NCBI RefSeq assembly: GCF_003315135.1
Contig: NZ_QNRK01000004.1
Coordinates: 182,740 to 246,739, forward strand
Direction of reading: 5' to 3'
Source of the DNA: Roseiarcus fermentans
GTDB taxonomy: Bacteria; Pseudomonadota; Alphaproteobacteria; Rhizobiales; Beijerinckiaceae
Length of the DNA: 64,000 nt
Below, piece by piece: positions 1 through 20,695 of this stretch. The notes under the pieces were generated by a model. The model had not been told where the DNA came from, searched no databases, and saw only the letters and a list, made by a program, of their open reading frames with translations. The position numbers and the translations under genes were made by a program. Every line of letters begins with the position of its first letter. The first letter of the stretch is position 1.

Positions 1-2856
1 CAATCCGACCGCCCCTCGGCGGTCGAAATCAGCCGGGCGGAGAAATCCCGGCTGATCGCCCTGACGATCGCGCGCCGCGCGCCGGACGACCCGGACGGCT
101 GGGCGCAGGTGGCAGGACAGATCGCCGCGCTCGCCCCGGACTTCGCGACCCTGCTGCGTTTTATCCGCGCCGAACCCGCCCTGGCGCCGGCCTATTTCGC
201 GGTCGCGGCCCGCGTTCGCCCGCTGATCGAGACAAGCGGGCCTTCTACGCGCCTCCTCGTCAGCGCCGCGCGGGACCTCGCGACCGGGCGGACGCCTTCG
301 ATAACGGACCTGACCGACGACGAGCGGCTGCGCGTCCGGCTTTACGAGCTTTGCCTCCTCGCCGGCGCGGCGAGCCCCTCGTCGACCGCCGCGGCGGCGG
401 AGGATCTTTCGCTGCAGACGCCGGATGGACATTCTGCGCTCGTTCTTTTGTTGCTGAGAACGGGGCGCGTCGCTCCCAACCGGCTGCCCCTCGCCGTCAT
501 CGCCGATTGGCCCGAGGACCGGCGGCGCGCGTTCTTCTGGCGCTATCTGGCCTTCCTGTTCCAGCGGCGGCTCGCGCCCCTGGCCGACCCGGCGAAGACA
601 TTCCGGCTGGTCCTCGACCCCGAGGAGAAGGCGCGCGTCGTCCGTCTCATGATGCCGGGACAGTTCGCCGCGGCCAAGCGCGGCGGGCTCGAAGTCGTGC
701 GCCCGACGATCCGGCGGACGGGTCTCCCGGCGACCCGCTGGTTCGACATCAGCCTGACGCTGCCGCGTCTGGCGTCGGTGGCGACGGTCGCCGCCTGGAC
801 CGCGCTCGTGCGCAGCACGCTCGGCGCCTGTCAGGCGAGGGAATATCTCGGCCGCGCGGGCACCCTGCGCGCCATGACCCGACGCTTCGGCGCCGACGGC
901 GTGCTCCATCTCTACCAGAAGTGGGGGGTGCGCTCGCTGTTCGAGCAGAGCCTCGACAACGGCGCGCGCAGCACCCGGCAGGTGCTCGAAAACTTCGCCG
1001 GACGCTATCCGCAGGTTCTGCCGCCGCAGGTGCTGGACAAGGTGAAAGCCTTCACTTGCGACCGCGACACGTTCGTCACGCTCGTCAACGACTATCTGCT
1101 GGGCCGCGCGCCGGGCGCGAATGCGGACATCGCCGAGATCGTGGCCGCGGCCTTCGAAGCGCCGCCGTCGGCGTTGCGCGGCGTCGTCGAGAGCGAGGCG
1201 GGCCGGCGGCTGGTGGCCGCGCTCGCCCAGTTCAAGATTCGTCACGGCGTCAATCTGATGCGCTCGATCGCGTTCGGCCGCGACGCGCCGCCGGGTCCCG
1301 CCGGCCTCGACGGCTATCTGTACGAGCTCCGCAACGCCTTCACCCTCGAACTCGCCATGCACGCCGCCCGCCACGACGGCCGGATGCCCGGCAGGAGCGC
1401 GCGGCGCAAGCTGTTCGACAGTTTCGTCATGCTCGAATTCGACAGCGAGCGCCTCCCGGCCGACCGGATCGAGGCGGCTTGCCGGCAGTTGCGCTCCGGG
1501 GCGGTGAGCCGGGTCAACGCCGCGCTCGAGGCTCAGGGCGGCGCCGAACGGCTCGACCCCGGCGACCTCGAGGCGCTCGCCAGGGACTGGCGCGACATCG
1601 AGCCGGTCGTCACCGTGCTGGCCCGGCTGAGCGACCCTGCGCGACGGGGAGGCCCGAGCCCTGAGGCGGCGCTGCTCGTCCTGCAAGCCGCCAAGGCCGC
1701 CGCGCGACGGAGTTTCATGGCGTTCAAGTTCGACCACGAGTCCGGACGGGGCCAGCTCGCCTTCCTGACCGAGGCGCAGCGCGCGGCCTGGAGGACGGCG
1801 CGCGCAAGAGTGCGGATCGGCGGCGCCGAGCAGCCGCGAAACGAGCCGCGACTCGAGGACCTGATGCGCCGTCTCGACGCCGATCTGGCGCATCTGCACG
1901 CGGGCGCGCCGGCCGGGAGCGCGAACCCGCCGCCTGCGCTTCGCGACGAAATGGCCGCGCTCGCCAGCGAGGAGATCAAGGCCAATCCGGCGATCGTGGC
2001 CGAGCGCGTCCTCGCCGCGCATGTTTCCCCGGATATGATTCCCGCTTGCGCGCGCGCCTGCCTGGCCGATGTCGCGGCCCGCCTCCAGGGCGCGGCGCCC
2101 GGCGGCTTCGAGCTGCGCAACGCGGCGCGGGTCCTGCGCGCGCTCCTGCGCATCGGCTTCATCGACGCCTGGGAAAGCGATGCGGCCCAGGGCGCGCTCG
2201 CGAGCCTGCGCGCGATCGAACGCGAAATCCCGAAGGATCTGCTCGACGGGGAGACGATCTCGAAGGGCGTCGTCGCCACCGCCTTCGACTGCTCGCCGCG
2301 CCTGATGCTGACCATCGGCGACCTCGTCAACACCGGCTGCTGCCTCAACTATCAGAGCGGCGCCCGCATCAACGTGCTGCCGGCCTATGTCGTGGACGCC
2401 AACATCCAGGCGCTCGCGAGTTGGCGCCTCAAGGAGACGCATTTCGCCAGCGTGCGCGATTACAAGGCCGTCCTGAACGCCTTCGTCGCCGGCCGGCCGG
2501 CGCCCGCCGCCTTCGACGGCGACCGCCTGGTGTTCCGCTTCACCCTGCCCGACCGCGAGATCGAGACCTCGACGCTGGGCTTCGCCCACCTGCGCCAGAT
2601 CGTCCGACTGGGGCGCGTGCGCCAGGGCGCGACGGAGCGCCCCGGCCTCCTGGCCGAGCGCGAATATGCGCAGGCCCACCCGTTGCAGCCGCTGATGCGC
2701 GCCAACCACGCCGACATCCTGAGCGCGCTGTCGGAGGAACTGGGCGCGGTCGACGGCAGGCCGATGGAGTTCCCGCAATCCCGCAACCCCGACGGCGTCT
2801 ATTGCGACGCCCTCGGCGGCGTGCAGCCCGGCGCCTACGCCGTCCACCATCTGTGA
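1..2856 (+). CDS. Large protein of unknown family, 5' end outside window; partner of AAA/M41 protein
   Basis: The frame is open from base 1, so the gene almost certainly begins upstream; a GTG at 109 is only the first internal start-like codon. At least 950 residues are encoded, alanine/arginine rich and mostly helical in appearance, with no signal peptide, membrane segment or P-loop that I can see. The most conserved-looking part is near the C-terminus (about nt 2280-2420): an FDCSPRLMLTIGD stretch, then TGCCLNYQSG, then AYVVDANIQAL. The paired cysteines followed by a Tyr-Gln-Ser-Gly turn look like a functional site, but I do not recognise the family. The gene ends 6 nt before the start of the triple-AAA/M41 gene, so the two are surely co-transcribed and probably act together, for example as substrate, adaptor or effector of the protease. 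Function unknown. Confidence 0.8.
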   Translation, partial: QSDRPSAVEISRAEKSRLIALTIARRAPDDPDGWAQVAGQIAALAPDFATLLRFIRAEPALAPAYFAVAARVRPLIETSGPSTRLLVSAARDLATGRTPSITDLTDDERLRVRLYELCLLAGAASPSSTAAAAEDLSLQTPDGHSALVLLLLRTGRVAPNRLPLAVIADWPEDRRRAFFWRYLAFLFQRRLAPLADPAKTFRLVLDPEEKARVVRLMMPGQFAAAKRGGLEVVRPTIRRTGLPATRWFDISLTLPRLASVATVAAWTALVRSTLGACQAREYLGRAGTLRAMTRRFGADGVLHLYQKWGVRSLFEQSLDNGARSTRQVLENFAGRYPQVLPPQVLDKVKAFTCDRDTFVTLVNDYLLGRAPGANADIAEIVAAAFEAPPSALRGVVESEAGRRLVAALAQFKIRHGVNLMRSIAFGRDAPPGPAGLDGYLYELRNAFTLELAMHAARHDGRMPGRSARRKLFDSFVMLEFDSERLPADRIEAACRQLRSGAVSRVNAALEAQGGAERLDPGDLEALARDWRDIEPVVTVLARLSDPARRGGPSPEAALLVLQAAKAAARRSFMAFKFDHESGRGQLAFLTEAQRAAWRTARARVRIGGAEQPRNEPRLEDLMRRLDADLAHLHAGAPAGSANPPPALRDEMAALASEEIKANPAIVAERVLAAHVSPDMIPACARACLADVAARLQGAAPGGFELRNAARVLRALLRIGFIDAWESDAAQGALASLRAIEREIPKDLLDGETISKGVVATAFDCSPRLMLTIGDLVNTGCCLNYQSGARINVLPAYVVDANIQALASWRLKETHFASVRDYKAVLNAFVAGRPAPAAFDGDRLVFRFTLPDREIETSTLGFAHLRQIVRLGRVRQGATERPGLLAEREYAQAHPLQPLMRANHADILSALSEELGAVDGRPMEFPQSRNPDGVYCDALGGVQPGAYAVHHL

Positions 2857-2862
2857 GGCCCG

Positions 2863-5800
2863 ATGAAGCAGATCGTCTCCCCGTCGGCGTCCGGACCGGA
2901 GCGGACGCTCAGCGCCTCGCTCGCTTTCCTCGGGCTCGAGCCGAGACCGCGGCTGCGCGAGGAGGTCGAACCCGACGCGACGCTCGCGGGCCTGCTGTCG
3001 CGGGACGCCGGCCCCGCGGACGCCCCTGCCCGTCTGTTTCGCTCGGTGGTCAGCGCCTGGCTGTCCGACGACGAGCGCGCGCTCGCGGCGAAAGGCCGGG
3101 CGCAGGCGATCGTCGGCCGCGACCGGGAAGCCGACGCGATTCTCGACACGCTGGTGCGCATCAAGGCGCGGGCGCCGGTGCTGATCGCGCCGCCCGGCTC
3201 CAAGTCGACGATCGCGCGGCGCGCGGTGCAGCGCGCCATCGCCGGCGAGTATCCGCAGTCGAGACCCTACCGGCGCATGCTGGAGCGCGCCCATTGGGTC
3301 GCGATCACGCCGAGCCGGCTGTTGGCGCTCGCCAGCGCCAACAATCCCGCCGGCCGCAAGCAGGCGGTCGAGCGCTTCTTCGACGCCGCGCTCGCGCTGG
3401 AAGCGCGAGAGAAGATCCGTATCGTCGTGTTCATCGACGATTTTCACACCCTGGACGGCGATCAGGTCGAGGCGCTGACGCCCTACATCGACGCCGACAC
3501 GCGCGCCGTCAGCATCGTGGGCGCGTGCAGCGCGGATAAATTCAGCCTCGCTTTCAAGGACAACGCCAGTTTCGTGCGGCGGATCCGGCAGATCCCGGTG
3601 GTCGAGTTTTCCGACGACGAGTCGCTGCGCATCCTCGAGCAATCCTGGCTGGCGCGCGTCGAGGCCCATTACGGCGTCCGCTTCTCCGAGCGCGCGCGAA
3701 AACCCCTCGTCCGGCTCGGGACCACCCTCTACCCCGAGGGCGGCAAGATCGACGCCGGGCTCAAGATGGCGATCGACCTGGCGATCCACAGCCTCCGGCG
3801 CGCCGGCGCGAGCGAGGGCCCGATCGCGGTGGAGGAGGACGACGCTTACGCCTTCTTCAAGGCGCGCACCGGCTATCCGGTCAATCCGTTCAATCCGGAG
3901 GAGCTCGCAGCCTATGTGCGGGCGCTCGACGCCGCGCTCGCCGCCGAGATCGTCGGGCAAGAGCGCATGCGCCGCGATCTCCTGCATCTGTTTCAGGACG
4001 TGATCGTCGGCGCGAAGAAGGACATGGGGGTGATCGCGCTGCTCGGGCCGACGGGCGCCGGCAAGTCCCAGATCGCCAAGCTGCTGGCGCAGCACGGCTT
4101 CCAGAACCCGCGGGCGCTGCTGCGCATCGACATGACCGAGTACCGCTCGCACGATTCGAGCCTGAACAAGCTGTTCGGGGCGGTCGGCGGCCTCGTCACC
4201 TCGACCGAGCGGCAGGGCATATTGTGCGACTGGTTCGACGATCCGAGCCAGGGCAAGTACGGCGGCGTCGTGCTGATCGACGAGGCCGAGCGCGGCGATC
4301 CGGGCGTCTGGGAGCGCCTGATGGAGTTCTTCGACACGGGCGCCTTCGTCGGCGGCGACGGCCGCCGGCGGCAGGCGCGCCGCCACGTCGTGATCCTGAC
4401 CAGCAACCGTGGCGACACGATCCTGTTTCCCGATTCGATCGCCCACTGGAGCGACGCGCATCTCGCGACTTACGTCGACGAGATCGAGGAGACGACGCTC
4501 AAGCGCCTGTTCCAGATGAAGCTCACCGGCCGCGACGCGTTCCAGATTCCGACGCCCGTCCTCAACCGCATCGACCGCTACACGGTGGCCGGCCCCCTGC
4601 GCAGCGGCCAGGCGGCGGAGATCGTGCAGCGCTTGGCGCAACGGCATGTCGACGCGATCGCGCGCGATCTCGAGGTCGTCATCGCGCTCGATCCGGGCAT
4701 CGCCGGGCGCCTCGCCGACCACCACTTCTCCATGGTCGACGGCGCGCGGCCGCTCGAGCGCGGCGTCGCCCGGTTCTTCAACGCGGTCAAGGAGCGGTTG
4801 CAGGCGGGCGCGATCCGCGCCCTGCGCGGCCGCACGATCGAGCTGATCCTCGACGCCGACAACGCGGCCGACGGCCGCGTGCGGGCGCTCTGCGACGGAG
4901 CGGCCGCCTTCGCCGTCGACCTGCCGCGGGCGCGGGTCGCGGACCCCCTGCTCGACCCTGAGTTTTCTCGTCAAATCAAACGCCTACGTGACATTCTTCC
5001 CAGCGAGGTCAAGGGCCAGGACGACGCCGTCGAGCGCACGATCGAGGCGTTGACGAGCTGGCTCTCGCTGCCCGTCGCTTCGCGCCGGCCACTCGGCCTG
5101 TTCTGGGTCGGGCCGACCGGCGTCGGCAAGACGGAGCTGGCGCGCGCGGTCTCGCTCGCTCTGTTCGAAGCCCGCGAGCGCGCCGAGATCATCCCGTTCG
5201 GCGAAGTGTCCAACGAGCACCGGCTGAACCAGGTGATCGGTTCGCCGCCGGGCACGATCGGCTCCGACGAAGTGCGCGCGTTCGAGCGCGCGCTGCGCAA
5301 CATGCCGGACGGCGGCGTGCTGGTGTTCGACGAGATCTCCAACATGGGGGACACGCCCGCCACGCGCGACGCCCTGTTCAAGCGCCTCTATCACCCGTTC
5401 GAGGAGGGCCGCTGGACGTCGTCGGCGACCAGCGAGACCTACGATTTGAGCCGCTACGTTATCGTGCTCACCGGCAACGACGGCGAGGATTTCTTCAAGG
5501 GCACCGATTCCGACCCGATCCGCGAGCAGATCTGGCGCAAGCTCAAGGCGCCCGACAAGGTGCGCCGGATGCTCGGCGAGCGCGGCGTGCCGCAGGCCTT
5601 CCTCGGGCGCATGGCCGACGTCATCCTGTTCCGGCCGCTCACCCACGCCGTCGCCGGCGACGTAGCGGCGAAGCTCGTGGCGCGCATTCTCGACCGCTAC
5701 GCCGCGCTCGGCGTGGAGACTCGCGTCGAGGACGCCTTCACCCGCACCTTCGGCGACCTGTTCTACACCGCCGACAAGGGCGCGCGCAGCCTGCGCGACA

Positions 5801-6696
5801 TGGCGACCCACCGCTTCAACCACGTGATCGCGACCGCGCTCGCCGAGGTCGGCTGCGCGCCGGAGGTTTTGCGCGCCCACGCGGTGCGCCTGAAGCTCGC
5901 GGCGCGTCTGCCGGACCGGCCGTTCGTCGCGCCGGACGATCCGAAGCCGAAGGTCGAGTTCGTCGTCGAGATTCTTGCGCGCAGCGACGGCGCGCCGCGG
6001 ATCGTCGTGACGAAGGACTACACGCAATTCGCCGCGCTGCCCAAGCGACTGGCCGAGACGCAGGCGCGCGCCACCGCCTATCACGAAGCCGGCCACGCGG
6101 TCGTCAACGATCCCGCCCTCACCGGCCAGAAGCTCGCCTGGCTCACCATTCTCGGCGACGTCGGCAATCTCGGCTTCGCCCTCTACGACGAGGACGACGA
6201 CCGCCCGGTTCTGGTGGTCGACCGCAGCCGCGCCGTGCTGCGGCTCGCGCGGCTGATGGCGGGACAGACGGCGATGACGATGGCGGGCTTCGCCCCCGAC
6301 GCCGGCTGGGCCGCCGACCTGCGCGCCGCGCGCCAGCTCGCCCGCCGCATGATCCTCGAATGGGGCCTCGATCCGGAATTCCTCGGCGTCGCCCCGGCGC
6401 ACGACACCGGCCGCAACGACGACCCGCACCTCTTGAGCGAACGCCAGATCGACCGCCTCTCCGACACGATCGCAGGCCTGCTGGCGGAAGCGCTGACGGA
6501 GGCGGAAGGCCAGCTCGGCCGCGACTGGGACCTCGTCGAGGCGCTGGTGGCGCAGCTGATGGCGAACGGGTCCGTCTCCGGCGAGACGTTCGATCGCCTG
6601 CGCGCCCAGCATCCCCCCCGCGAGATCGCCGGCCATGCGAAGATCGCCGGCGTCGACGTCTGCGCCCGTCTCCTCGTGCGCGCGAAGGGAAACTAG
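2863..6696 (+). CDS. Triple AAA+ ATPase fused to an M41 (FtsH-type) zinc peptidase domain
   Basis: 1277 residues. Domains in order: an N-terminal Clp-type AAA module (GRDREAD near 85; degenerate P-loop APPGSKST near 110; Walker-B-like VFIDDFHTL near 189); a second AAA+ module (GQERM near 365, Walker A GPTGAGKS at 395-402, Walker B VVLIDEAE near 469); a third ClpB-D2-like module (KGQDDAVE near 717, Walker A GPTGVGKT near 750, Walker B VLVFDEIS near 819); then an M41 peptidase domain with HEAGH at 1074-1078. A candidate third zinc ligand, D1152 in AADLRAARQLARRM, sits about 75 residues on, as in FtsH. Unlike FtsH there is no transmembrane segment and the ATPases are of Clp type, so this looks like a soluble ATP-driven protease or remodeler. 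The first module has probably lost ATPase activity. It lies 6 nt after the upstream gene and abuts the carotenoid oxygenase gene. The fusion call is strong; its substrate is unknown. Confidence 0.9.
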   Translation: MKQIVSPSASGPERTLSASLAFLGLEPRPRLREEVEPDATLAGLLSRDAGPADAPARLFRSVVSAWLSDDERALAAKGRAQAIVGRDREADAILDTLVRIKARAPVLIAPPGSKSTIARRAVQRAIAGEYPQSRPYRRMLERAHWVAITPSRLLALASANNPAGRKQAVERFFDAALALEAREKIRIVVFIDDFHTLDGDQVEALTPYIDADTRAVSIVGACSADKFSLAFKDNASFVRRIRQIPVVEFSDDESLRILEQSWLARVEAHYGVRFSERARKPLVRLGTTLYPEGGKIDAGLKMAIDLAIHSLRRAGASEGPIAVEEDDAYAFFKARTGYPVNPFNPEELAAYVRALDAALAAEIVGQERMRRDLLHLFQDVIVGAKKDMGVIALLGPTGAGKSQIAKLLAQHGFQNPRALLRIDMTEYRSHDSSLNKLFGAVGGLVTSTERQGILCDWFDDPSQGKYGGVVLIDEAERGDPGVWERLMEFFDTGAFVGGDGRRRQARRHVVILTSNRGDTILFPDSIAHWSDAHLATYVDEIEETTLKRLFQMKLTGRDAFQIPTPVLNRIDRYTVAGPLRSGQAAEIVQRLAQRHVDAIARDLEVVIALDPGIAGRLADHHFSMVDGARPLERGVARFFNAVKERLQAGAIRALRGRTIELILDADNAADGRVRALCDGAAAFAVDLPRARVADPLLDPEFSRQIKRLRDILPSEVKGQDDAVERTIEALTSWLSLPVASRRPLGLFWVGPTGVGKTELARAVSLALFEARERAEIIPFGEVSNEHRLNQVIGSPPGTIGSDEVRAFERALRNMPDGGVLVFDEISNMGDTPATRDALFKRLYHPFEEGRWTSSATSETYDLSRYVIVLTGNDGEDFFKGTDSDPIREQIWRKLKAPDKVRRMLGERGVPQAFLGRMADVILFRPLTHAVAGDVAAKLVARILDRYAALGVETRVEDAFTRTFGDLFYTADKGARSLRDMATHRFNHVIATALAEVGCAPEVLRAHAVRLKLAARLPDRPFVAPDDPKPKVEFVVEILARSDGAPRIVVTKDYTQFAALPKRLAETQARATAYHEAGHAVVNDPALTGQKLAWLTILGDVGNLGFALYDEDDDRPVLVVDRSRAVLRLARLMAGQTAMTMAGFAPDAGWAADLRAARQLARRMILEWGLDPEFLGVAPAHDTGRNDDPHLLSERQIDRLSDTIAGLLAEALTEAEGQLGRDWDLVEALVAQLMANGSVSGETFDRLRAQHPPREIAGHAKIAGVDVCARLLVRAKGN

Positions 6697-8163
6697 ATGG
6701 CCGCCGCCTCCGCCCTCCGGCTCGCCCCCGGTTTCGCCGCGCTCGCGTCACACGGACCCTGGACCGCGAAGTCCAGACCCGGACGCCTGAGCTACCGCGC
6801 CTTCCGCACCGTGACGCGCGAGGGCCCGTGGACGCCCCGCGCCGTCGAGGGAGAGATCCCGCGCGACCTTTGCGGCACGCTCTATCGCAATGGCCCGGGG
6901 CAGAAGGAGACCTTCGATGTGCCGCTCGGCCACCTCTTCGACGGCGACGCCTATCTGACGGCCCTGCGCTTCGCCGAGGGCCGGCTGTCCGGCCTGTCGC
7001 GCTTCGTCATGACGCCGGAGCGCAAGCACGAGCTGGCGTCCGGGCGCATGCGTTACCACGAATTCGGCACGCGCTGCCCCGGCCGCGCCCTCGGCTTCAA
7101 GAACCCGCCCAACATCAACGTCTTCCCGATGGCGGACGGACATTTCGCGCTGTCGGAAGGCGCGCCGCCGGTGCTGATCGATCCCGACACGCTGGAGTGC
7201 CTGGGGGCGCGCGACTTCGCCGGCAGCTGGCCCGCCCGCACCACCTTCACCGCGCATCCCAAGCGCGATCCCGCGACCGGCGACGTGTTCGCCTACGGCA
7301 TGACGATGACGCTGTTTCCCGAGCTCGTGCTCGGCCGGCTCGCCGCCGGCGAAAGCGCCTTCGCCATCTTCGCGCGGGCGCCGCTCGGCGGCGTTTATCC
7401 GGTGCACGACTTCATGATCACGCAGTCCTATGTCGTCGTGGCGCTTCCTCCGGTCTACATCAGCATGTGGGGGCTGCTGCGTGGACGGTGCCTCGCCGAG
7501 AGCATCGTCGCCGAGCCGCATAAGCCGCTTCGCATCCTCGTGGCGCGCAAGGACGGAACCAAGCCCCCGGTCACGATCGAAAGCCATCCGGCCAACATGA
7601 TCTTCCACCATTGCAACGCCGTCGAAAGCGAAGACGGGCGCACAATCCGGCTGATCTCGATCGAGACCGAGGCCGTCGCGGGGTTTCGCGCGCTCGAGGG
7701 CTGGGGCCGCGCGACGACGCTCGCGCATCCGAAGTCGCAGATGACCGAATTCGTCATCGACGTCGAGGCGAAGACGGTCGCGCGCACGGCGCTGACCGAG
7801 GGCGCGCCGATCGAGTTCCCGGCCATCGACCAGCGCGGGCTCGGCCGGCGCATGGACGCGATCTACGCGCTGCGCACCTTCGACGCGCCCGACGATCCGC
7901 TCGCCTTCGACACGATCACGCGCTGGGACGGCGCGGGGTTTCGCGAGTCTCGCGCGCGGCGCGGCCAGGTGTTCGGCGAGCCGGTGGTGGTCCCCGACGC
8001 CGCCGGCGGCGCCTGGATCGCCCATCTCGGCTACGAAGCCGACCGCGACGAGACCTTTCTCGACATCCGCGATCCCGACGACCTGCGCCTCGTCGCCCGC
8101 GCCTGGTTCGGCTTTCGCATGCCGCTCGGCTTCCACGGGCACTACGTTCCGGACGTGGGGTGA
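6697..8163 (+). CDS. Carotenoid oxygenase (RPE65 / carotenoid cleavage dioxygenase family)
   Basis: 488 residues, the usual family length. Members are seven-bladed propellers with a non-haem Fe(II) held by four histidines that cleave double bonds of carotenoids, apocarotenoids or stilbenes. Visible family features: GTLYRNGPG and HLFDGDAYLTAL near the N-terminus and four well-spaced His positions (H187 in TAHPKRD, H237 in VHDFM, H304/H305 in FHHCNA, and H480/H482 in GFHGHYVPD at the C-terminus). The start codon follows the stop of the AAA/M41 gene with no gap (TAG then ATG), so it is translated from the same mRNA. No carotenoid biosynthesis gene is near, so the substrate cannot be inferred. 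It could be a lignostilbene-type enzyme instead. Confidence 0.9.
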   Translation: MAAASALRLAPGFAALASHGPWTAKSRPGRLSYRAFRTVTREGPWTPRAVEGEIPRDLCGTLYRNGPGQKETFDVPLGHLFDGDAYLTALRFAEGRLSGLSRFVMTPERKHELASGRMRYHEFGTRCPGRALGFKNPPNINVFPMADGHFALSEGAPPVLIDPDTLECLGARDFAGSWPARTTFTAHPKRDPATGDVFAYGMTMTLFPELVLGRLAAGESAFAIFARAPLGGVYPVHDFMITQSYVVVALPPVYISMWGLLRGRCLAESIVAEPHKPLRILVARKDGTKPPVTIESHPANMIFHHCNAVESEDGRTIRLISIETEAVAGFRALEGWGRATTLAHPKSQMTEFVIDVEAKTVARTALTEGAPIEFPAIDQRGLGRRMDAIYALRTFDAPDDPLAFDTITRWDGAGFRESRARRGQVFGEPVVVPDAAGGAWIAHLGYEADRDETFLDIRDPDDLRLVARAWFGFRMPLGFHGHYVPDVG

Positions 8164-12694: not shown

Positions 12695-15600
12695 TTACGT
12701 GAACTTGATCATGGTTCCGTGCGCCCCGTCGGCGGCGAGCGCGAAATTGGACGTCGCGTAACTACCCTGCAAGGAGAGCTGGGCAAGCCCCCCGTTACTC
12801 GCCACAAACAGCGTTCCGCCGTGCCCAAAGCCCGCCGGGCTGAAGAGGACGCCCACCGCGCTGCTGTAGGAGAGGTTGCCGAGATCGATCTCGTCGCCGC
12901 CGCCGAAGCCGGCGATCGTCGCGTGGAAGGCAGCCAGATCGTCGAGCCCGAGAACGCCGCCCGACCCGGAGAAGCCGACCGTCTGGCCGGACCCGACGGC
13001 GCCGGAGACCGTCGCCGTTCCGCCCGCCACGGTCAGTCCGCCCGCCACGACGCCGCCGGACGACACCACGAGCGTCCCGCCGCTGACGACCGTCGCCCCG
13101 CTGATCACGCCGCCCGAACGGACGAACGCCGAGAAGCCGCCGCTGACGGTCGTGGCGCGGTTGGTCTGGCCGGAACTGACCGTCAACATCGTGTCGTACG
13201 CGGCGACGGAGGCGGTGGCGCTGGTCGAATGACCGGCGGGGTCGGCGGCCACAATCTGGAACTGGGTGGCGACGGCGTGCTCGAAGGCGGCCTGGCCGAC
13301 GGTCGGGGTGAACACCAGGTCGTCGAGCGCGCTGGAGACCTGCTGCGCGGAGCCGCTGACGGTGTAGACGCCCTGCGCCGCATTGTATTGACCGCCGCCC
13401 AGGTTCGACAGCTTGCCGGCGCCTGGCGAGGACAGGCGCACCGTGACCGACAGCGTCGTCGCCCCCGCTTCGCCGATCGAGACGTTCTGGAAGGGCTTGA
13501 TCGTTCCCCTGTCGCTGACCCTCTGCGAGAGCGCGGCCCCGCTGATCACCGGCGCCACGGTCAGATCCGTCCCGCCATGGCCATCGTCGCTCGCGCGCAG
13601 GCCGAGCGCCGACAGGTTCAGCGTGTAGGATTTGCCGCCGCTCAGCTCGATGGTTTCCGTGCCGTTCGGATTGGCGAGGATCGATGTCAGCGCGTCATAG
13701 GGCAGGCTCACGAGATCGATTGTATCCAGCGAGGTGAAATTCTCGATCAGATTGCGCGGCATCGCCCGACCGTCGATCTGCAGCGTCGGATCGGTGCCGA
13801 CCGGAAACTCGATCGCCGCCGTCCCGAGGGCGCCGCCGTTGGTCATCTCGACGGCGCCGCTGACGATCTTGACCGTTCCGGAGAATTGCGACGCATCGCC
13901 GGAACCCACGATATAGGTTCCGCCGCCTTCGACGATGACTTCGCCGCCGCCGCCGATCGTGCCGGTCAGGACGCCGCCGAGCGGGTTTTCGAGGACAAGT
14001 TCGCCGCCCGTCTCGAGATCAATGGCGCCTTCGAGCTGACCGCCCGAGTCGACGACGCCGCCGCCGCTCTCGATCGTCAGGCCGCTCGCCACGCCGCCGA
14101 GGCTGACAACCATGTCGCCGCCGCTGGCGACGATCGTCGCGTTTGCGAGACCTCCAGCGCTGACGACTTGCAAGCCGCCGGCCGAAAGCGTGTCGCCCGT
14201 GGCGACGCCGCCGTTCTGGATCGTCGCGACGCCGGCGCCGGCGACGACATTGCCGCTTGCCCTGCCGCCGGAGAGGATTGTCTCCGCACCACCCGTGCTG
14301 ATGAGCAATCCGCTCGCCAGACCGCCGCCGCTGACGATTTCCGCGCCGCCGTTGAAGACCGAGGCGGCGAAATCGACGCCGCCGGAGGATACGATATCGC
14401 TACCGCCGTAGACCAGAGCGCTCGTGGCGGTCCCGCCCGACTCGATCAGTTGATAGCCGCCGGAGGCGACCGAAGTGAATTGCGCCTGCTCGCCGGAGAG
14501 CACGTCCATCTCGCCCTGATCGTGCAGGTAAACGTCGGACGCTGTGCCGCCTTGGGCGACGATCAGGCCGACGCTTGTGACTTCGAGCTTCTCGATTGAG
14601 GCGCTATAGGCTGCAACCGCGCCGGAAATCGACACCACGCCGCCGATGAAGTCCGGCACCAGGCTCGTCAGGCTGACGTTACTGACGTTGGCGGCGTTGA
14701 TTCCGGTATAGGCCCCGCCAAGCATCGTCATCACGCCGCCGGCGACCTCTCCATTGGTGATCTGAATCGCGCCCTTTATGATTGCCGAGCCGGCTTTGAG
14801 GATCTTCACGCCGGAGGCGATATTCCTGGAAATATTGTTGCCTTGGAGGTACAGCTCGGCGCCGGCTTTAACGCCAATGCCATATGCCGTCGGGTCAGTG
14901 GCGATCAACTTGGCGCCCTGGCCATTCAAATTCACGTTCTGGATGTTCGTCTCATTCGTCGTCAGTGTCGATTGATCGTCGACCTGAATATCGCTTGCAG
15001 AGCCGCCGTTCAGGCTGGCCTGGGAATCGCCCTGCAACTCGACGTTCTCCAGGATGTCATCCGTGGGCGCGTTTAGATCGGTATTTACCAAAGTCGCATT
15101 CGAAAGCGTGGCGCTCGGCTCCATTTCGACAGTCTGATTTTCAAGGATCTGGCCGTTGACGTCGCCCGTGACGACTTGTGAAGCAAAGTTCTGCGCTTCA
15201 TCTGCGGCAGCCTGATTGCCAATGCCGGGATTACCGGCCAGTTGGTCCTTGACGAGGTTCGACTCGGCTTCGGCGCCCCCGGCTTTCGAGGCGTCGTTCA
15301 CAGCCTGTTTGGCAGCCGCGCTTTCGGAGTCTTCGAGCGCCGTGGTGACCTCTTTTTCGGTGGTCTTGGCGACGTCCTTCGTCACGGTGCCGGCCAGTTT
15401 CGCTTCCGCCGCGACGTCCGCGCCGCCGGTCGCCACGATGACGGCGACCTGCACGACCAAAAGGAGGCCCGACAACACTTCCTTGGTGATTTGACCGGCA
15501 GTGGGCGTTTGGAACTGCGTATCGAGGACGGTGGCGCCGTCGACCTCGCCAAACGAACCGCCGGACGAGATGTACGAATTGCTGGCGTAGCCGCCGGAGG

Positions 15601-18600
15601 CCACCTGCAACGCGCCGTTGCTGGCGACCGTGTTCGCCATCGCGGAGCCTCCGGACTGAACGGCCAAAATGCCATCGGCCTTCACGGTTGTGCCGGTTGC
15701 GTTGCCGCCGCTGAAGACTTCGAGTCCACCAAACAGAGTGCCGCTACTGGTCGCGAAACCGGAAACCGTGGCGCCCAGGGCCCAGCCTCCGGCCGAGATG
15801 AACTCGTAGCCGGCGCCGTCGATCTTGGCGCCGTCGGTCCTGCCGCCGCCGGTGGTGACCTCCATGCCGAGGACGCTGACGACCGTATTGCTCGCAACGC
15901 CGCCCGATACGTCCTGAATGCCGTCCCGGTTCACCGTGGTGGAGCTCGCGACGCCGCCGGACGCCACAAACAAATAGCCGCCGCTGTCGACCGTCGCCTT
16001 GGAAACCTTGGCCCCGCTCGAAACGCCCAGCGCGCCGCCGGAGAGCGTAATGTTCTTGGCGGTCGCCGAACCGCCCAGCGACGCGACCGCGCCGGCGGAA
16101 AGAATCGTATCGTTGAAAGCGCCGCCGCTGCCGACGATCCTGCCGCCGGAGAGGACCGTCGCCGACTCGACGGCGCCGCCGCCAATCTCCAGGTTGGCGC
16201 CGCTCGAGACGATGGTGTTCGAAGCGGCGCCGCCCTCGACCAGCTGCGTCCCGCCGCCGCTCAACACGGTCCCGCTCGCGGTTCCCAACGAGACCACCTG
16301 GGAGCCGCCGAAGGAAACGATCGCGTTGGACGTCTGGCCGCCTGAAACCAGCTCCTCGCCGCCCGCTGCGAGCACGGCGCCGAGCGCGACACCCCCGAGA
16401 CCGACGATCTCCGTCCCGCCGTTGATGGCGGACGTGGCGCTCGCCAGGCCGCCGGCCTGGATCGTCGCCGTGCCGCCGTCCAGAATTTTGGTATGGGTGG
16501 CGAGACCGGAATCGGCCATCACGCCGCCGGCCGAAAGGACGGTCGAGTCGGCCACGCCATTGAGCGCGACCGACACGGTTCCCCCGGAACTGACCACCGT
16601 GCCCGAAGCGCTGCCGTTCCCCATGACGAGCTCTTCGCCGCCTTGAAGAACGGTCGTGCCGGTTACAAAACCGCCTTGATCCTGCTGGAGGCCGCCGGCC
16701 GAAACCGTCGTGCCGGCGGCGACGCCGCCGGACATCACCTCGATCACCCCGCCCGCCTCCACCACCGCGTTCAGCACGCCGTAGCCGGCGCTAACGACAT
16801 AGGTCGAACCGGACACGACGAGGTGGTCCAGGATGATATGGCCGCCCGCGCGCAGCGTGGCGCTCACGATCGTGGCGCCCGGCGCCTCGACCAGTTCGCC
16901 TCCGCTCGAGATCACGGTCCCGGACGCCGCGCCGCCGGCCGAGACGTACTGCACGCCGCCTAGCAGCACGGTGTCCCCGTTGGCGACCCCGCCGCCGAGG
17001 ATGGTTTCCCGGCCGCCGACCGACGTTCCCGAAGCCGTGCCGGCGACCGTCAGAGCGCCGCCGAATTCGACGGTCGCCCCCGAGTCGAAGCCGGCCGCCG
17101 AAACGATCGCGACGCCGCCGGAGGCGATCGTGTCGGCGAGCGCCCTGCCGCCGGCCTTCACCGCCTCGACGCCGCCGCTTTCCACCGTTGCGCCGGTGAG
17201 AATGCCGCCGCTGCCGACGAGCACGGCGCCGGAGTTGGCGACAATCGTTCCCGCCGCGCTGCCGCCCGAGGCGATGGCTTGCAGGCCGCCGAAGCTGGCA
17301 TGGGTGTTCGGATTGATTCCGCCGGTGATATAAGCGTCCGTCGCGGCGCCGCCGCCGGAAATCACCTGTGTTCCGAGGATATTGGCGTTGCTGTCCGCTC
17401 CGCCGGCCAGAACGGTCTCGCTGCCGCCGGAGCCGACGGAAACCGTGTAGCCCGAGCCTCCGGCCCCGATGATCAGTTGGCCGCCGTGATAGATCACGGC
17501 CCCATTGGCGCTTCCCAACTGATAGACGCTCTCCACGGCTCCGCTGAAGATCTGCGCGCCGCTATCCACGCCGCCTTGCGCATCGGCGTTGTCGCCCGGC
17601 GCGGTCGCGGAAAACACATCGTCGACGCCGCCCGACGACACTTGCGTGTTGATCGCGACGCCGCCCTGCAGCACCTCCTGAGCGCCGCCGGCGGCGATTT
17701 CGTTCCCGCGGCCGATGCCCCCGCTCTCGAGGACGATCTCGCCGCCATTGGCCACGAACGACGCGTCGACGCGACGCCCGGGGCCGACCACCAGGACATC
17801 GCCATCGATCAGGCCGGTTCCGAGCGCGGCCATATTGCCGCCGAAGGAAACCGTCAGACCGGCGGCTTCGATCGTTCCGCCGGGCTCGAGCGTCGGGTCG
17901 AAATTGAAGCCGCCGGGCGCGGCGGAGACATAGCCGCTCGATTCGATCGCGGTGTTCCATGTCGCCGCGCTCGTGGCCAGATCGAGCACGCCGCCCGCCT
18001 CGACCACCGTGTTGAACAATCGATAGCCAGCCAGCGCGCTGAAGGTCGAGCCCGAGGGAATCAAAAGGCCGCTGATGTCGATCTCGCCGCCGCTGACCAA
18101 GGTGTTGCCGGCGACTTCGGCCAGGACCGTGGCGATATCGGTTCCCGAAACATCGTAGACGAGGTCGCCGCCGCTGCTCACCGTGACGCCGCCGGCGCTG
18201 CCGCCCTGCTGAACAGAGACCACGCCGTGCGACAGCACGGCGCCGCCGCTGAACGTCGCGCCGGCCTGCACCACCGCGGAGCCGCCGCTGCTGACGATCG
18301 TACCGTGAGCCGAACCGCCCAGCATGATCGACTGGACGCCGCCGGAGGACAGGATCGCGCCGCTGGCGGCGCCCCCGGCCTCTATGGTCTCGACGCCGCC
18401 GGACCCGACGACGGTCGCCGATGCGAGGCCGCCAGCCGCGATGAATTCATGAGCGCCGGAGAAGACCGAGGTGTTGAACGTGGCGCCTCCGTCGACAACG
18501 ACATTGCCGCTGTCGTCGAGATTCGAGACCGGCGAACCGGCGGTTACGGAGACCGTGACCGCGGCGTCGACGAAGATGCTGCCGTGGAAGCCGGTCTGAC

Positions 18601-20695
18601 CGCCAACCTGGGTCGACAGCGCCAGGCCGTCCGTGATCACCGACCCGGCCCCACTGAGCTCGAGGAGGCCCTGGCCAATGATCGCGCCTGCTGAGATGGT
18701 GGTCGTACCGGCTATATCCAGTTCAACGGCGCCGTAATCGAGCAGGCCACCGTTGTTTAGCGACGCCGAACCGCCCGAATAGGCGAGCGCGATGCTGGCC
18801 TTGGCGCCGGACGACACGAGCAAGGCCCCGCCGGAATCGATCCGGGTGGCGGAAGCGACGGCGCCGGGCAGGAGAACGGCGCTGCCCGAGGACTGGATCT
18901 CGGTATCGAGCGCAAATGCGCCGGAGGAGATCAGCAGACGCCCGCCGGACGACACCGTCGTGTCGACCGCAGCGGCGCCCTGGGAATTGGCCAGCAGTTG
19001 CCCGCCCGCCCCGACCTGCGCCGAGATCGCGGACACGTTCGTGCTGAGGTTGAGCGTCAGCAGAGCGGCGCCCGGACCGCCGACTGCGTAGTTGACGAGC
19101 TCTTCCGCCCCCCCTTTCGAGATGGTCACGCCGGTGACCGTCGCGCCGGCGGAAACGACGAGCACGCCGCCATTGGAGACGGTGACGTTGGCGGCGACGC
19201 CGCCGGCCTGGACGTTCGCAACGCCGCCGCCCTCGACGACCACCGCGGCGGCCGAACCGCCCGCCTGCACGATGACTTGCCCGGCGCCGCTGACGGAGTC
19301 GCCGGCGACCGACGTCGCGCTCGCGACGCCGCCCTTCTGCACCCATTCGACGCCGCCCCCCAACACGTTGGTCGCCATCGCCGAGCCGAGGCTTCCGACG
19401 AATTGCTGGCCTCCGGAACTGACCCACGTGGAGACAGTCTGTCCGCCGCGATAGACATATTCCGAGCCGCCCGGCTGCGTCCCCGCGCCTGCGTCGGCGC
19501 GCAGGGTGGTGAAGCTCGCGACGCCGCCATCCACGACCGTATCCTGGCCGGTTCCGGAGACCCAGTCGTGAATCGCCGTGCCGCCGGCGGAGACGATCTG
19601 TTCGCCGCCGTCAAGAATATTGGCGGCGCTCGTGCTGCCTGTATTGGAAACGAGCTGGAGGCCGCCGGCGAAGACGCTCGCGTTATACGAGTAGCCGCCG
19701 GACGAAACGCTTTCCACGCCGCCCTGGGTGATGCTGGTGAAGCTGGTCTGCCCCGAAAGCCGAACGACCAGGTCCCCGCCCTGCGCGACTCCGAGCCCCC
19801 ATCCGTAATGGCCGCTCGCACCGATGAACGCCGTGGTGTTCGACAGCGTCCACTCGCGCTCGACGATCGAGACGCCGACGCCGTTGGAGGCCGGACCATA
19901 ACCGATGCCGGTCTCTGGAGACGTGCCCGAGTCCAGGTAGACGGTCCCGCCGTTGGCGACGAAGATGGCGTTCGTATTTGCGCCGGATACGATCTCCAGG
20001 ACAGCGCCGGAGGACACCGTTATCGTGTTCGCTGCGCCATAGGAGGCGATGTACATGGAGCCGCGGCTCAGGATTGTCGTCGATGTCGCCGACCCGAAAT
20101 CCTGAAAAACGCCAGAACCGGAAACCGTCGTGCTGGTCACGAAGGCGCCGGCATCGACCTGAAGCAAACCGCCGCCGCTCACCAGGGTTTCGTTTTGCGA
20201 GCCTTGGTATTGCACGACTTCCGTGCCGCCGTTCTCGACCGTCACGCCGTAGGCTGAGCCGCCGGCGATGACGAGGCTGCCGTAATCGGCTGCGTATGGG
20301 AAACCGTCTGAATTGTATTCAGAACCGCCGACGTCGATCTCTTCGTACCCGCCGGCTTCGATAACGGTGGCGTGAACCGTCCCTCCGCCTGTGGCGCTCA
20401 GCTGCCCGCCGGAGAAGACGGTATTGTATCCTCCCGAGCCCAGGCTATAAAAAATCGCAACGCCGCTGCTGGAAATGTAATTCGACGAGGCCACCGCATT
20501 GCTGTTTTCATAGCCGGAGCCGCCGCTGACCCTCAATATGCCGCCGAATGAGAACGTATCACCATAGGCGATTCCGCCTGACTCCACGTACAGAGTCGTG
20601 ATGTTGGTTGTCTTCGAGCTATGCGGAAATATAACGCCCGATACCTCGCTGTTCTGATTAACGTACTCGGTTGCGCCGTTCGTCGAGATGCCCAT
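12695..20695 (-). CDS. Giant strand-loop-strand (AIDA-type) repeat protein, probable type I-secreted adhesin
   Basis: 2666 residues from ATG with GGGGGA 7-8 nt upstream. Residues about 1-1720 and 2070-2280 are dozens of roughly 20-residue repeats of the form VxSGGxxxVxxGGxAxxTxV, the autotransporter-passenger repeat seen in AIDA-like adhesins. There is no N-terminal signal peptide and no C-terminal beta-barrel. Instead there is a domain near 2390-2500 (PVISGAALSQ to VAAYDT) of a kind common in alphaproteobacterial T1SS substrates, a few more repeats, and a C-terminal block ending LQGSYATSNFALAADGAHGTMIKFT-like, which I take as a type I secretion tail. Residues about 1722-2070 are a non-repetitive insert with a hydrophobic stretch (LSGLLLVVQVAVIVAT) and a charged helix. 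Base composition is less GC-extreme than that of the neighbours. Probably a cell-surface or matrix protein. Confidence 0.85.
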   Translation of the reverse strand: MGISTNGATEYVNQNSEVSGVIFPHSSKTTNITTLYVESGGIAYGDTFSFGGILRVSGGSGYENSNAVASSNYISSSGVAIFYSLGSGGYNTVFSGGQLSATGGGTVHATVIEAGGYEEIDVGGSEYNSDGFPYAADYGSLVIAGGSAYGVTVENGGTEVVQYQGSQNETLVSGGGLLQVDAGAFVTSTTVSGSGVFQDFGSATSTTILSRGSMYIASYGAANTITVSSGAVLEIVSGANTNAIFVANGGTVYLDSGTSPETGIGYGPASNGVGVSIVEREWTLSNTTAFIGASGHYGWGLGVAQGGDLVVRLSGQTSFTSITQGGVESVSSGGYSYNASVFAGGLQLVSNTGSTSAANILDGGEQIVSAGGTAIHDWVSGTGQDTVVDGGVASFTTLRADAGAGTQPGGSEYVYRGGQTVSTWVSSGGQQFVGSLGSAMATNVLGGGVEWVQKGGVASATSVAGDSVSGAGQVIVQAGGSAAAVVVEGGGVANVQAGGVAANVTVSNGGVLVVSAGATVTGVTISKGGAEELVNYAVGGPGAALLTLNLSTNVSAISAQVGAGGQLLANSQGAAAVDTTVSSGGRLLISSGAFALDTEIQSSGSAVLLPGAVASATRIDSGGALLVSSGAKASIALAYSGGSASLNNGGLLDYGAVELDIAGTTTISAGAIIGQGLLELSGAGSVITDGLALSTQVGGQTGFHGSIFVDAAVTVSVTAGSPVSNLDDSGNVVVDGGATFNTSVFSGAHEFIAAGGLASATVVGSGGVETIEAGGAASGAILSSGGVQSIMLGGSAHGTIVSSGGSAVVQAGATFSGGAVLSHGVVSVQQGGSAGGVTVSSGGDLVYDVSGTDIATVLAEVAGNTLVSGGEIDISGLLIPSGSTFSALAGYRLFNTVVEAGGVLDLATSAATWNTAIESSGYVSAAPGGFNFDPTLEPGGTIEAAGLTVSFGGNMAALGTGLIDGDVLVVGPGRRVDASFVANGGEIVLESGGIGRGNEIAAGGAQEVLQGGVAINTQVSSGGVDDVFSATAPGDNADAQGGVDSGAQIFSGAVESVYQLGSANGAVIYHGGQLIIGAGGSGYTVSVGSGGSETVLAGGADSNANILGTQVISGGGAATDAYITGGINPNTHASFGGLQAIASGGSAAGTIVANSGAVLVGSGGILTGATVESGGVEAVKAGGRALADTIASGGVAIVSAAGFDSGATVEFGGALTVAGTASGTSVGGRETILGGGVANGDTVLLGGVQYVSAGGAASGTVISSGGELVEAPGATIVSATLRAGGHIILDHLVVSGSTYVVSAGYGVLNAVVEAGGVIEVMSGGVAAGTTVSAGGLQQDQGGFVTGTTVLQGGEELVMGNGSASGTVVSSGGTVSVALNGVADSTVLSAGGVMADSGLATHTKILDGGTATIQAGGLASATSAINGGTEIVGLGGVALGAVLAAGGEELVSGGQTSNAIVSFGGSQVVSLGTASGTVLSGGGTQLVEGGAASNTIVSSGANLEIGGGAVESATVLSGGRIVGSGGAFNDTILSAGAVASLGGSATAKNITLSGGALGVSSGAKVSKATVDSGGYLFVASGGVASSTTVNRDGIQDVSGGVASNTVVSVLGMEVTTGGGRTDGAKIDGAGYEFISAGGWALGATVSGFATSSGTLFGGLEVFSGGNATGTTVKADGILAVQSGGSAMANTVASNGALQVASGGYASNSYISSGGSFGEVDGATVLDTQFQTPTAGQITKEVLSGLLLVVQVAVIVATGGADVAAEAKLAGTVTKDVAKTTEKEVTTALEDSESAAAKQAVNDASKAGGAEAESNLVKDQLAGNPGIGNQAAADEAQNFASQVVTGDVNGQILENQTVEMEPSATLSNATLVNTDLNAPTDDILENVELQGDSQASLNGGSASDIQVDDQSTLTTNETNIQNVNLNGQGAKLIATDPTAYGIGVKAGAELYLQGNNISRNIASGVKILKAGSAIIKGAIQITNGEVAGGVMTMLGGAYTGINAANVSNVSLTSLVPDFIGGVVSISGAVAAYSASIEKLEVTSVGLIVAQGGTASDVYLHDQGEMDVLSGEQAQFTSVASGGYQLIESGGTATSALVYGGSDIVSSGGVDFAASVFNGGAEIVSGGGLASGLLISTGGAETILSGGRASGNVVAGAGVATIQNGGVATGDTLSAGGLQVVSAGGLANATIVASGGDMVVSLGGVASGLTIESGGGVVDSGGQLEGAIDLETGGELVLENPLGGVLTGTIGGGGEVIVEGGGTYIVGSGDASQFSGTVKIVSGAVEMTNGGALGTAAIEFPVGTDPTLQIDGRAMPRNLIENFTSLDTIDLVSLPYDALTSILANPNGTETIELSGGKSYTLNLSALGLRASDDGHGGTDLTVAPVISGAALSQRVSDRGTIKPFQNVSIGEAGATTLSVTVRLSSPGAGKLSNLGGGQYNAAQGVYTVSGSAQQVSSALDDLVFTPTVGQAAFEHAVATQFQIVAADPAGHSTSATASVAAYDTMLTVSSGQTNRATTVSGGFSAFVRSGGVISGATVVSGGTLVVSSGGVVAGGLTVAGGTATVSGAVGSGQTVGFSGSGGVLGLDDLAAFHATIAGFGGGDEIDLGNLSYSSAVGVLFSPAGFGHGGTLFVASNGGLAQLSLQGSYATSNFALAADGAHGTMIKFT

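Follow-up and report, generated by a model that had tools for sequence, protein, structure and literature searches.

AAA+ proteases are known in a few fixed pairings of motor and peptidase, namely ClpX, ClpA or ClpC with ClpP, HslU with HslV, the FtsH-type AAA module with an M41 peptidase, and Lon. The gene considered here lies in a 64,000-nucleotide stretch of contig NZ_QNRK01000004.1 of the alphaproteobacterium Roseiarcus fermentans (hereafter, the window) and encodes a single chain in which Clp-type motors are joined to an M41 peptidase (AAA-M41), a pairing that is outside this list. A preliminary description made from the sequence alone had considered this architecture uncharacterised, and no account of it was found in the literature searched, which for the most part did not extend to subscription papers and preprints. 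We consider it likely that the protein is a single-chain, ATP-driven zinc protease that acts together with the product of the gene immediately upstream (X), is cytosolic in this organism and descends from a family of exported type. The gene and its parts are the following.

2863..6696 (+), gene of 1277 aa with an ATG start, encoding AAA-1, AAA-2, AAA-3 and M41; Pfam and NCBIfam matches
3073..3822 (+), AAA-1, residues ~71–320, ClpA/ClpB D1-like; AAA_16 at 83–206, ClpA model from residue 73
3895..4902 (+), AAA-2, residues ~345–680, Clp D2-type with D2-small; AAA_2 at 387–551, ClpB_D2-small at 583–635
4045–4068 (+), Walker A of AAA-2
4267–4290 (+), Walker B of AAA-2
4960..5862 (+), AAA-3, residues ~700–1000, ClpB D2-type; Walker A at 5110–5133, Walker B at 5317–5340
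6052..6597 (+), peptidase M41 domain, residues 1064–1245; HEAGH at 6082–6096, Asp1152 at 6316–6318
6661..6663 (+), Cys1267, close to the C-terminus, invariant in 27 of 27 alignment rows

The three Clp-type modules, one degenerate and two intact, are recognised as the preliminary description had proposed. In AAA-1 the Walker A motif is degenerate (APPGSKST at residues 109–116) and Walker B reads FIDDF. Both motifs are intact in AAA-2 (GPTGAGKS at 395–402; VLIDEAE) and in AAA-3 (GPTGVGKT at 750–757; VFDEIS), and each of these two modules has its sensor-1 Asn, Arg finger and sensor-2 Arg. Pfam assigns two stretches to AAA_2 (100.6 bits) and also finds AAA_16 and ClpB_D2-small; Clp_N is absent from the 16 Pfam families that match at E ≤ 0.001. 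Among the NCBIfam models, FtsH_fam fits best over residues 1063–1241 and ClpB over 704–994, and ClpA spans the AAA part, all under their whole-protein cutoffs; the score for the ClpB equivalog is far too low (227.9 bits against a cutoff of 1232.1). The module that precedes M41 is thus a Clp D2-type one, given the position of the ClpB match, and not the single AAA module of FtsH; the matches listed by Foldseek and VIA for a model of AAA-3 are likewise Clp D2.

The M41 domain is detected by Pfam at residues 1064–1245, scoring 54.7 bits where 29.9 are required, and residues 984–1247 align to FtsH in a phmmer search of PDB sequences (~5e-15). A profile built from the M41 domains of 24 members matches FtsH structures at 5e-30, with the zinc ligands, HEXXH and the distal Asp, in register. 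HEAGH occupies residues 1074–1078 and is followed after 78 residues by Asp1152, so that the ligand pair put forward in the preliminary description stands and only its spacing, given there as about 75, has to be adjusted. The absence of a membrane helix, also claimed there, is borne out by a maximal 19-residue mean hydropathy of 1.17 past residue 80 and a maximal N-terminal 12-mer value of 1.28.

To describe the family, we use an alignment of 27 members that consists of the window protein, its Rhodoblastus relative and 25 of the 30 loci L013–L042 (omitted are L019, which is split, L024, long and open, L038, cut, L041, which has no M41, and L042, short). Pfam M41 is found in all 27. Invariant throughout are K401, E474, N515, R569 and R629 of AAA-2, K756, D823, E824, N872, R916 and R975 of AAA-3, the HEXXH residues, Asp1152 and Cys1267.

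Rhodoblastus acidophilus (L006) carries the same single open reading frame (ORF) with 79% identity over the alignment. Between the two genes, the nonsynonymous (dN) and synonymous (dS) distances over the whole length are 0.139 and 0.671 (dN/dS ~0.21). dN is lowest in AAA-3 and M41, the first 70 residues are near neutral, and the ratio for M41 (0.103/0.589) is as low as that for the motors. Purifying selection acts on this gene.

Outside this pair, the family is largely found in another lineage. When 84,980 species genomes were scanned with exact peptide patterns, five loci emerged. Three of these are relatives, from R. acidophilus (79%), a Bdellovibrionaceae metagenome-assembled genome (MAG; 36%) and, at 32%, a MAG assigned to Oligoflexia; the remaining loci, L009 and L010, encode ordinary FtsH and Lon and were not retained. 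Among alphaproteobacteria, the family is present in one of 100 relatives of the source organism, one of 289 genomes of the class and one of 397 genomes of the Rhodoblastus order, and each single positive is the query genome or Rhodoblastus itself. Across the phylum of the window genome, 278 of 299 genomes pass a loose cut of 1e-60; the best non-self match reaches 5.7e-86, and the matches listed span only the Clp-type parts of the profile. Within the phylum of the Bdellovibrionaceae relative (G386), which we take by inference to be Bdellovibrionota, 37 of 339 sampled genomes match the family at 1e-70, so that it is much commoner there than in alphaproteobacteria. The survey for the same domain order suggested earlier thus turned up Rhodoblastus, the two MAGs and M41 seen directly in 32 of these 37 genomes; among the other five, a contig end truncates L038 (G682) and L123 (G495), no M41 is seen in L041 and L120, and a fragment in G717 was not examined. 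A further class scan is dominated below ~1e-84 by Clp-type matches and includes some more divergent members (L111–L116 and L100:720-4544), which match the family M41 profile at 1.1e-24 or better; most of those that start inside their locus have, by eye, a signal-like start. Separate ClpA-, ClpB- and FtsH-like matches are present in the source genome, which makes the AAA-M41 protein an extra machine.

The N-termini differ between the two lineages. A fixed rule (a positive residue, an uncharged hydrophobic 10-mer and an A-x-A-like site) was applied to the 28 non-alphaproteobacterial members whose N-terminus lies inside the locus, and a Sec-signal-like start was found in 22 of them; none of 16 Clp-type controls and 367 of 6000 shuffled N-termini were positive. 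The rule is also positive in 61 of 132 neighbouring ORFs of at least 250 aa, either because signal peptides and membrane starts look alike to it or because the regions are rich in exported proteins. A hydrophobic 12-mer of at least 2.0 is a poorer discriminator (25 of 28 members but also 3 of 16 controls). The fixed rule is failed by L019 (split), L024, L025, L028, L031 and L040, although in L025, L028 and L031 a hydrophobic stretch is visible by eye. Most relatives have one such N-terminal stretch, and a second segment comparable to the first was seen in none of the family members. The relatives are therefore likely candidates for export on these sequence features. The window protein is negative by the rule and the Rhodoblastus protein borderline, passing two looser tests.

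In an unrooted tree of 27 members, the window and Rhodoblastus proteins form a pair next to L016 (G443), with 100/100 for both branches. L016 is signal-bearing, and all further members of the tree come from the other phylum. By inference, a transfer into alphaproteobacteria accompanied by loss of the signal is the simplest reading.

The putative partner X adjoins the AAA-M41 gene on its upstream side.

109..2856 (+), gene X, 915 aa within the window; likely start ATG at −44 with GGAGGAG before it, giving ~966 aa

Its reading frame is open from window position −95 and its stop lies six bases ahead of the AAA-M41 ATG. X is homologous (phmmer) to large neighbours of other family members, two in L084 (1.2e-52 and 1.3e-48) and one in L092 (6e-34), the conserved part being the last 200 residues. 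It adjoins the AAA-M41 gene in four genomes, upstream in the window, L006 and L092 and downstream in L084; G443, the genome that bears L016, has X beside the AAA-M41 gene. The L084 and L092 copies have a hydrophobic segment at their start, which is lacking in the window and L006 copies, so that the signal state of X matches that of the adjoining AAA-M41 protein. X has no Pfam match below 0.005 and no match in PHROGs, NCBIfam or PADLOC, and against the PDB it gives only a chance-level match (E 0.28).

We propose that AAA-2 and AAA-3 would form the ATPase motor, probably as stacked hexameric rings, that AAA-1, having lost its P-loop, may serve assembly or substrate capture, and that a C-terminal M41 ring would cut what the motor delivers. 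X might act as an adaptor, a substrate receptor or the main substrate. In the source alphaproteobacterium the X/AAA-M41 pair would probably be cytosolic, and it appears to descend from the family with export signals in Bdellovibrionota-type genomes.

Several observations weigh against this proposal. A Clp D2 pore loop is GYVG, with a Tyr. At this position the window protein has Leu in AAA-2 (GGLVTS) and Thr in AAA-3 (PGTIGS), and the aromatic is missing from both intact modules in L006 as well; in L016, the closest relative, Tyr is retained in AAA-3 only. Processive threading may thus be weak or absent, and the action less processive or more specialised than that of a disaggregase. The earlier suggestion of a self-contained disaggregase-protease is accordingly kept for its second half, a single soluble chain with its own M41 domain, and dropped for its first, since the pore-loop aromatics and the P-loop of AAA-1 are lost. 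Elsewhere in the family, the Walker B Asp of AAA-2 is replaced by Asn in 17 of 27 members, the AAA-1 P-loop is not recognisable in 8 of 27, and L041 (G623) and L120 (G685) have the AAA modules with M41 not found. A structure prediction for residues 690–1277 is good for AAA-3 and poor for M41 (block pLDDT, the predicted local confidence, roughly 30–56), so that the M41 assignment stands on sequence and not on the model. As to X, two sequences did not yield a usable model (mean pLDDT 42), and other members have a different large neighbour, represented by four related proteins, three of them with an FGE-sulfatase domain. Among 80 chosen genomes, X is present in 5 of 40 carriers of the family and 0 of 40 non-carriers; four of the five had supplied the X profile, and in the only new one (G420) X is on another contig. 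X is therefore not a general partner, and we base the link on adjacency in four genomes and two arrangements together with the shared presence or absence of the signal, not on the count.

The losses in the motor could also be taken to mean that the protein is a remodelling ATPase or chaperone which disassembles its targets and whose M41 domain, vestigial or regulatory, seldom cuts. The degeneration of the pore loops and AAA-1 in the window lineage and the M41-less L041 and L120 fit this alternative, and M41 pseudoproteases (FtsHi) are reported in plants (PMC8197885). We nevertheless find it improbable, given that all 27 aligned members retain HEXXH and the distal Asp and that the M41 domain is as constrained between the window and Rhodoblastus as the motors. 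A more serious alternative concerns the relatives, whose signal-like N-termini might be uncleaved anchors of a one-helix, FtsH-like membrane protease with the enzyme on the cytoplasmic side and no export. N-terminal helices anchor FtsH enzymes in the membrane, and the signal rule is crude, as its rate among neighbouring ORFs shows. Furthermore, the periplasm is described as lacking ATP (PMC11366764). Opposed to this are the A-x-A-like sites that follow the stretch in 22 of 28 members and the flank preceding it, which exceeds the following flank in positive charge in 25 of 30 proteins, among them the window protein and L006; from this charge difference the enzyme is predicted to be outside. We regard anchoring as a possibility to be taken seriously, short of an even chance.

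A role in anti-phage defence or another conflict system is very unlikely. PADLOC reports PDC-M37B at residues 704–876 (3.4e-35) and DolB at 353–515 (4e-19), but both matches sit on Clp-type AAA modules common to ordinary ClpB, with none specific beyond them, and X has no PADLOC or PHROG match; the defence reading was rejected on these grounds. One candidate viral contig aligns over residues 391–516 only (29%), and none of the viral candidates is a member of the family. Virus origin was likewise rejected, since a one-sequence viral scan gave no relative and a profile scan only that one locus, as was plasmid origin: 2087 plasmid records matched, none over at least 80% of the query, and those listed cover Clp-type spans. 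That a Clp gene and an FtsH fragment were joined by chance or during assembly has a negligible probability, as the same single ORF is present in Rhodoblastus and in two MAGs of another lineage and the architecture recurs in 25 further loci; assembly fusion is thereby refuted.

Beyond the single-chain zinc protease preferred here, a bolder version can be tentatively entertained, although we would not bet on it: the window protein may be a cytosolic offshoot of exported AAA+ metalloproteases of Bdellovibrionota-type bacteria, in which ATP-fuelled Clp motors with a built-in M41 domain would work outside the cytoplasmic membrane, for example on prey or host proteins where ATP is present, along with other exported nucleotide-using neighbours. 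A candidate for the latter is encoded in L100 (4601-7795, − strand), where the family members L100:720-4544 (+, divergent) and L100:7889-11860 (+) flank a circularly permuted ATP-grasp protein whose N-terminus is hydrophobic and which is encoded on the opposite strand; it would be a second nucleotide-using protein that looks exported.

Further genes of the window and neighbours of the family elsewhere are listed below; the last three are large proteins, hydrophobic at the N-terminus and with an FGE-sulfatase-type domain at the C-terminus, encoded directly downstream of members.

6697..8163 (+), carotenoid-oxygenase-like (RPE65) gene, Pfam RPE65 1.6e-82; begins on the base after the AAA-M41 stop
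12695–20695 (−), 2666-aa repetitive adhesin-like protein, Pfam AIDA stalk repeats 9.4e-61
L083:11959-15126, large neighbour
L085:11923-15228, large neighbour
L091:3052-6195, large neighbour

The window and Rhodoblastus, which has its RPE65-type gene at L006 11841–13328, share the order alpha/beta-hydrolase-like gene, X, AAA-M41 and RPE65-type oxygenase; the likeness to alpha/beta-hydrolases was assigned not by a profile but by visual inspection and a BLAST cluster of antisense frames. The oxygenase is present in one of 11 genomes of the window's genus, its own. The system might be linked in function to carotenoid cleavage.

The tails of family members carry a short Cys motif of the C-x-x-L-[LF] type, and similar motifs (e.g., CADLL) follow the hydrophobic start of several large neighbours; the neighbours with such a motif lie in L083, L084, L085, L091, L092 and L100 and have it at the N- or C-terminus. 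A loose form of the pattern occurs in 9 of 21 adjacent ORFs whose N-terminus is hydrophobic, compared with 11 of 65 at a greater distance, and several of these occurrences look like chance. Over 400 kb of G561, a C-terminal Cys motif is found in 2 of 41 soluble ORFs with a signal-like start, of which one is the family member itself, and in 2 of 217 signal-less ones, which rules it out as a general export tag in that genome.

The AAA-M41 protein would be an AAA+ protease of a new architecture, with an exported AAA+ protease as possibly a new kind behind it. If the relatives are truly exported, an ATP-driven unfolding protease would be active in a place considered free of ATP. That would run against a textbook rule and suggest that such bacteria deal with foreign or envelope proteins in a way not yet recognised.

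Compared with the described systems, the protein has the HEXXH and distal Asp of the FtsH/M41 proteases in the same register, but these enzymes have a single FtsH AAA module and a membrane anchor, whereas the window protein has two or three modules with Clp D2-type motors and no helix. With the HSP100 proteins ClpB/Hsp104 and ClpA/ClpC, it has in common D1 and D2 modules with D2-small, the D1-like P-loop being degenerate here; it differs from them in an extra D2-type module and a protease in cis instead of ClpP, and from ClpB further in the lack of a Clp_N match and of aromatic pore loops and in its low equivalog score. Lon likewise combines an AAA+ motor and a protease in one soluble chain, with a Ser-Lys protease in place of the zinc M41 domain and Clp D2-type motors found here. 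Torsins are Clp-like AAA+ proteins of the endoplasmic reticulum lumen, outside the cytosol, and the Pfam Torsin model matches 26 of the 27 family members; unlike these, torsins have no protease domain and reside in a eukaryotic compartment that contains ATP.

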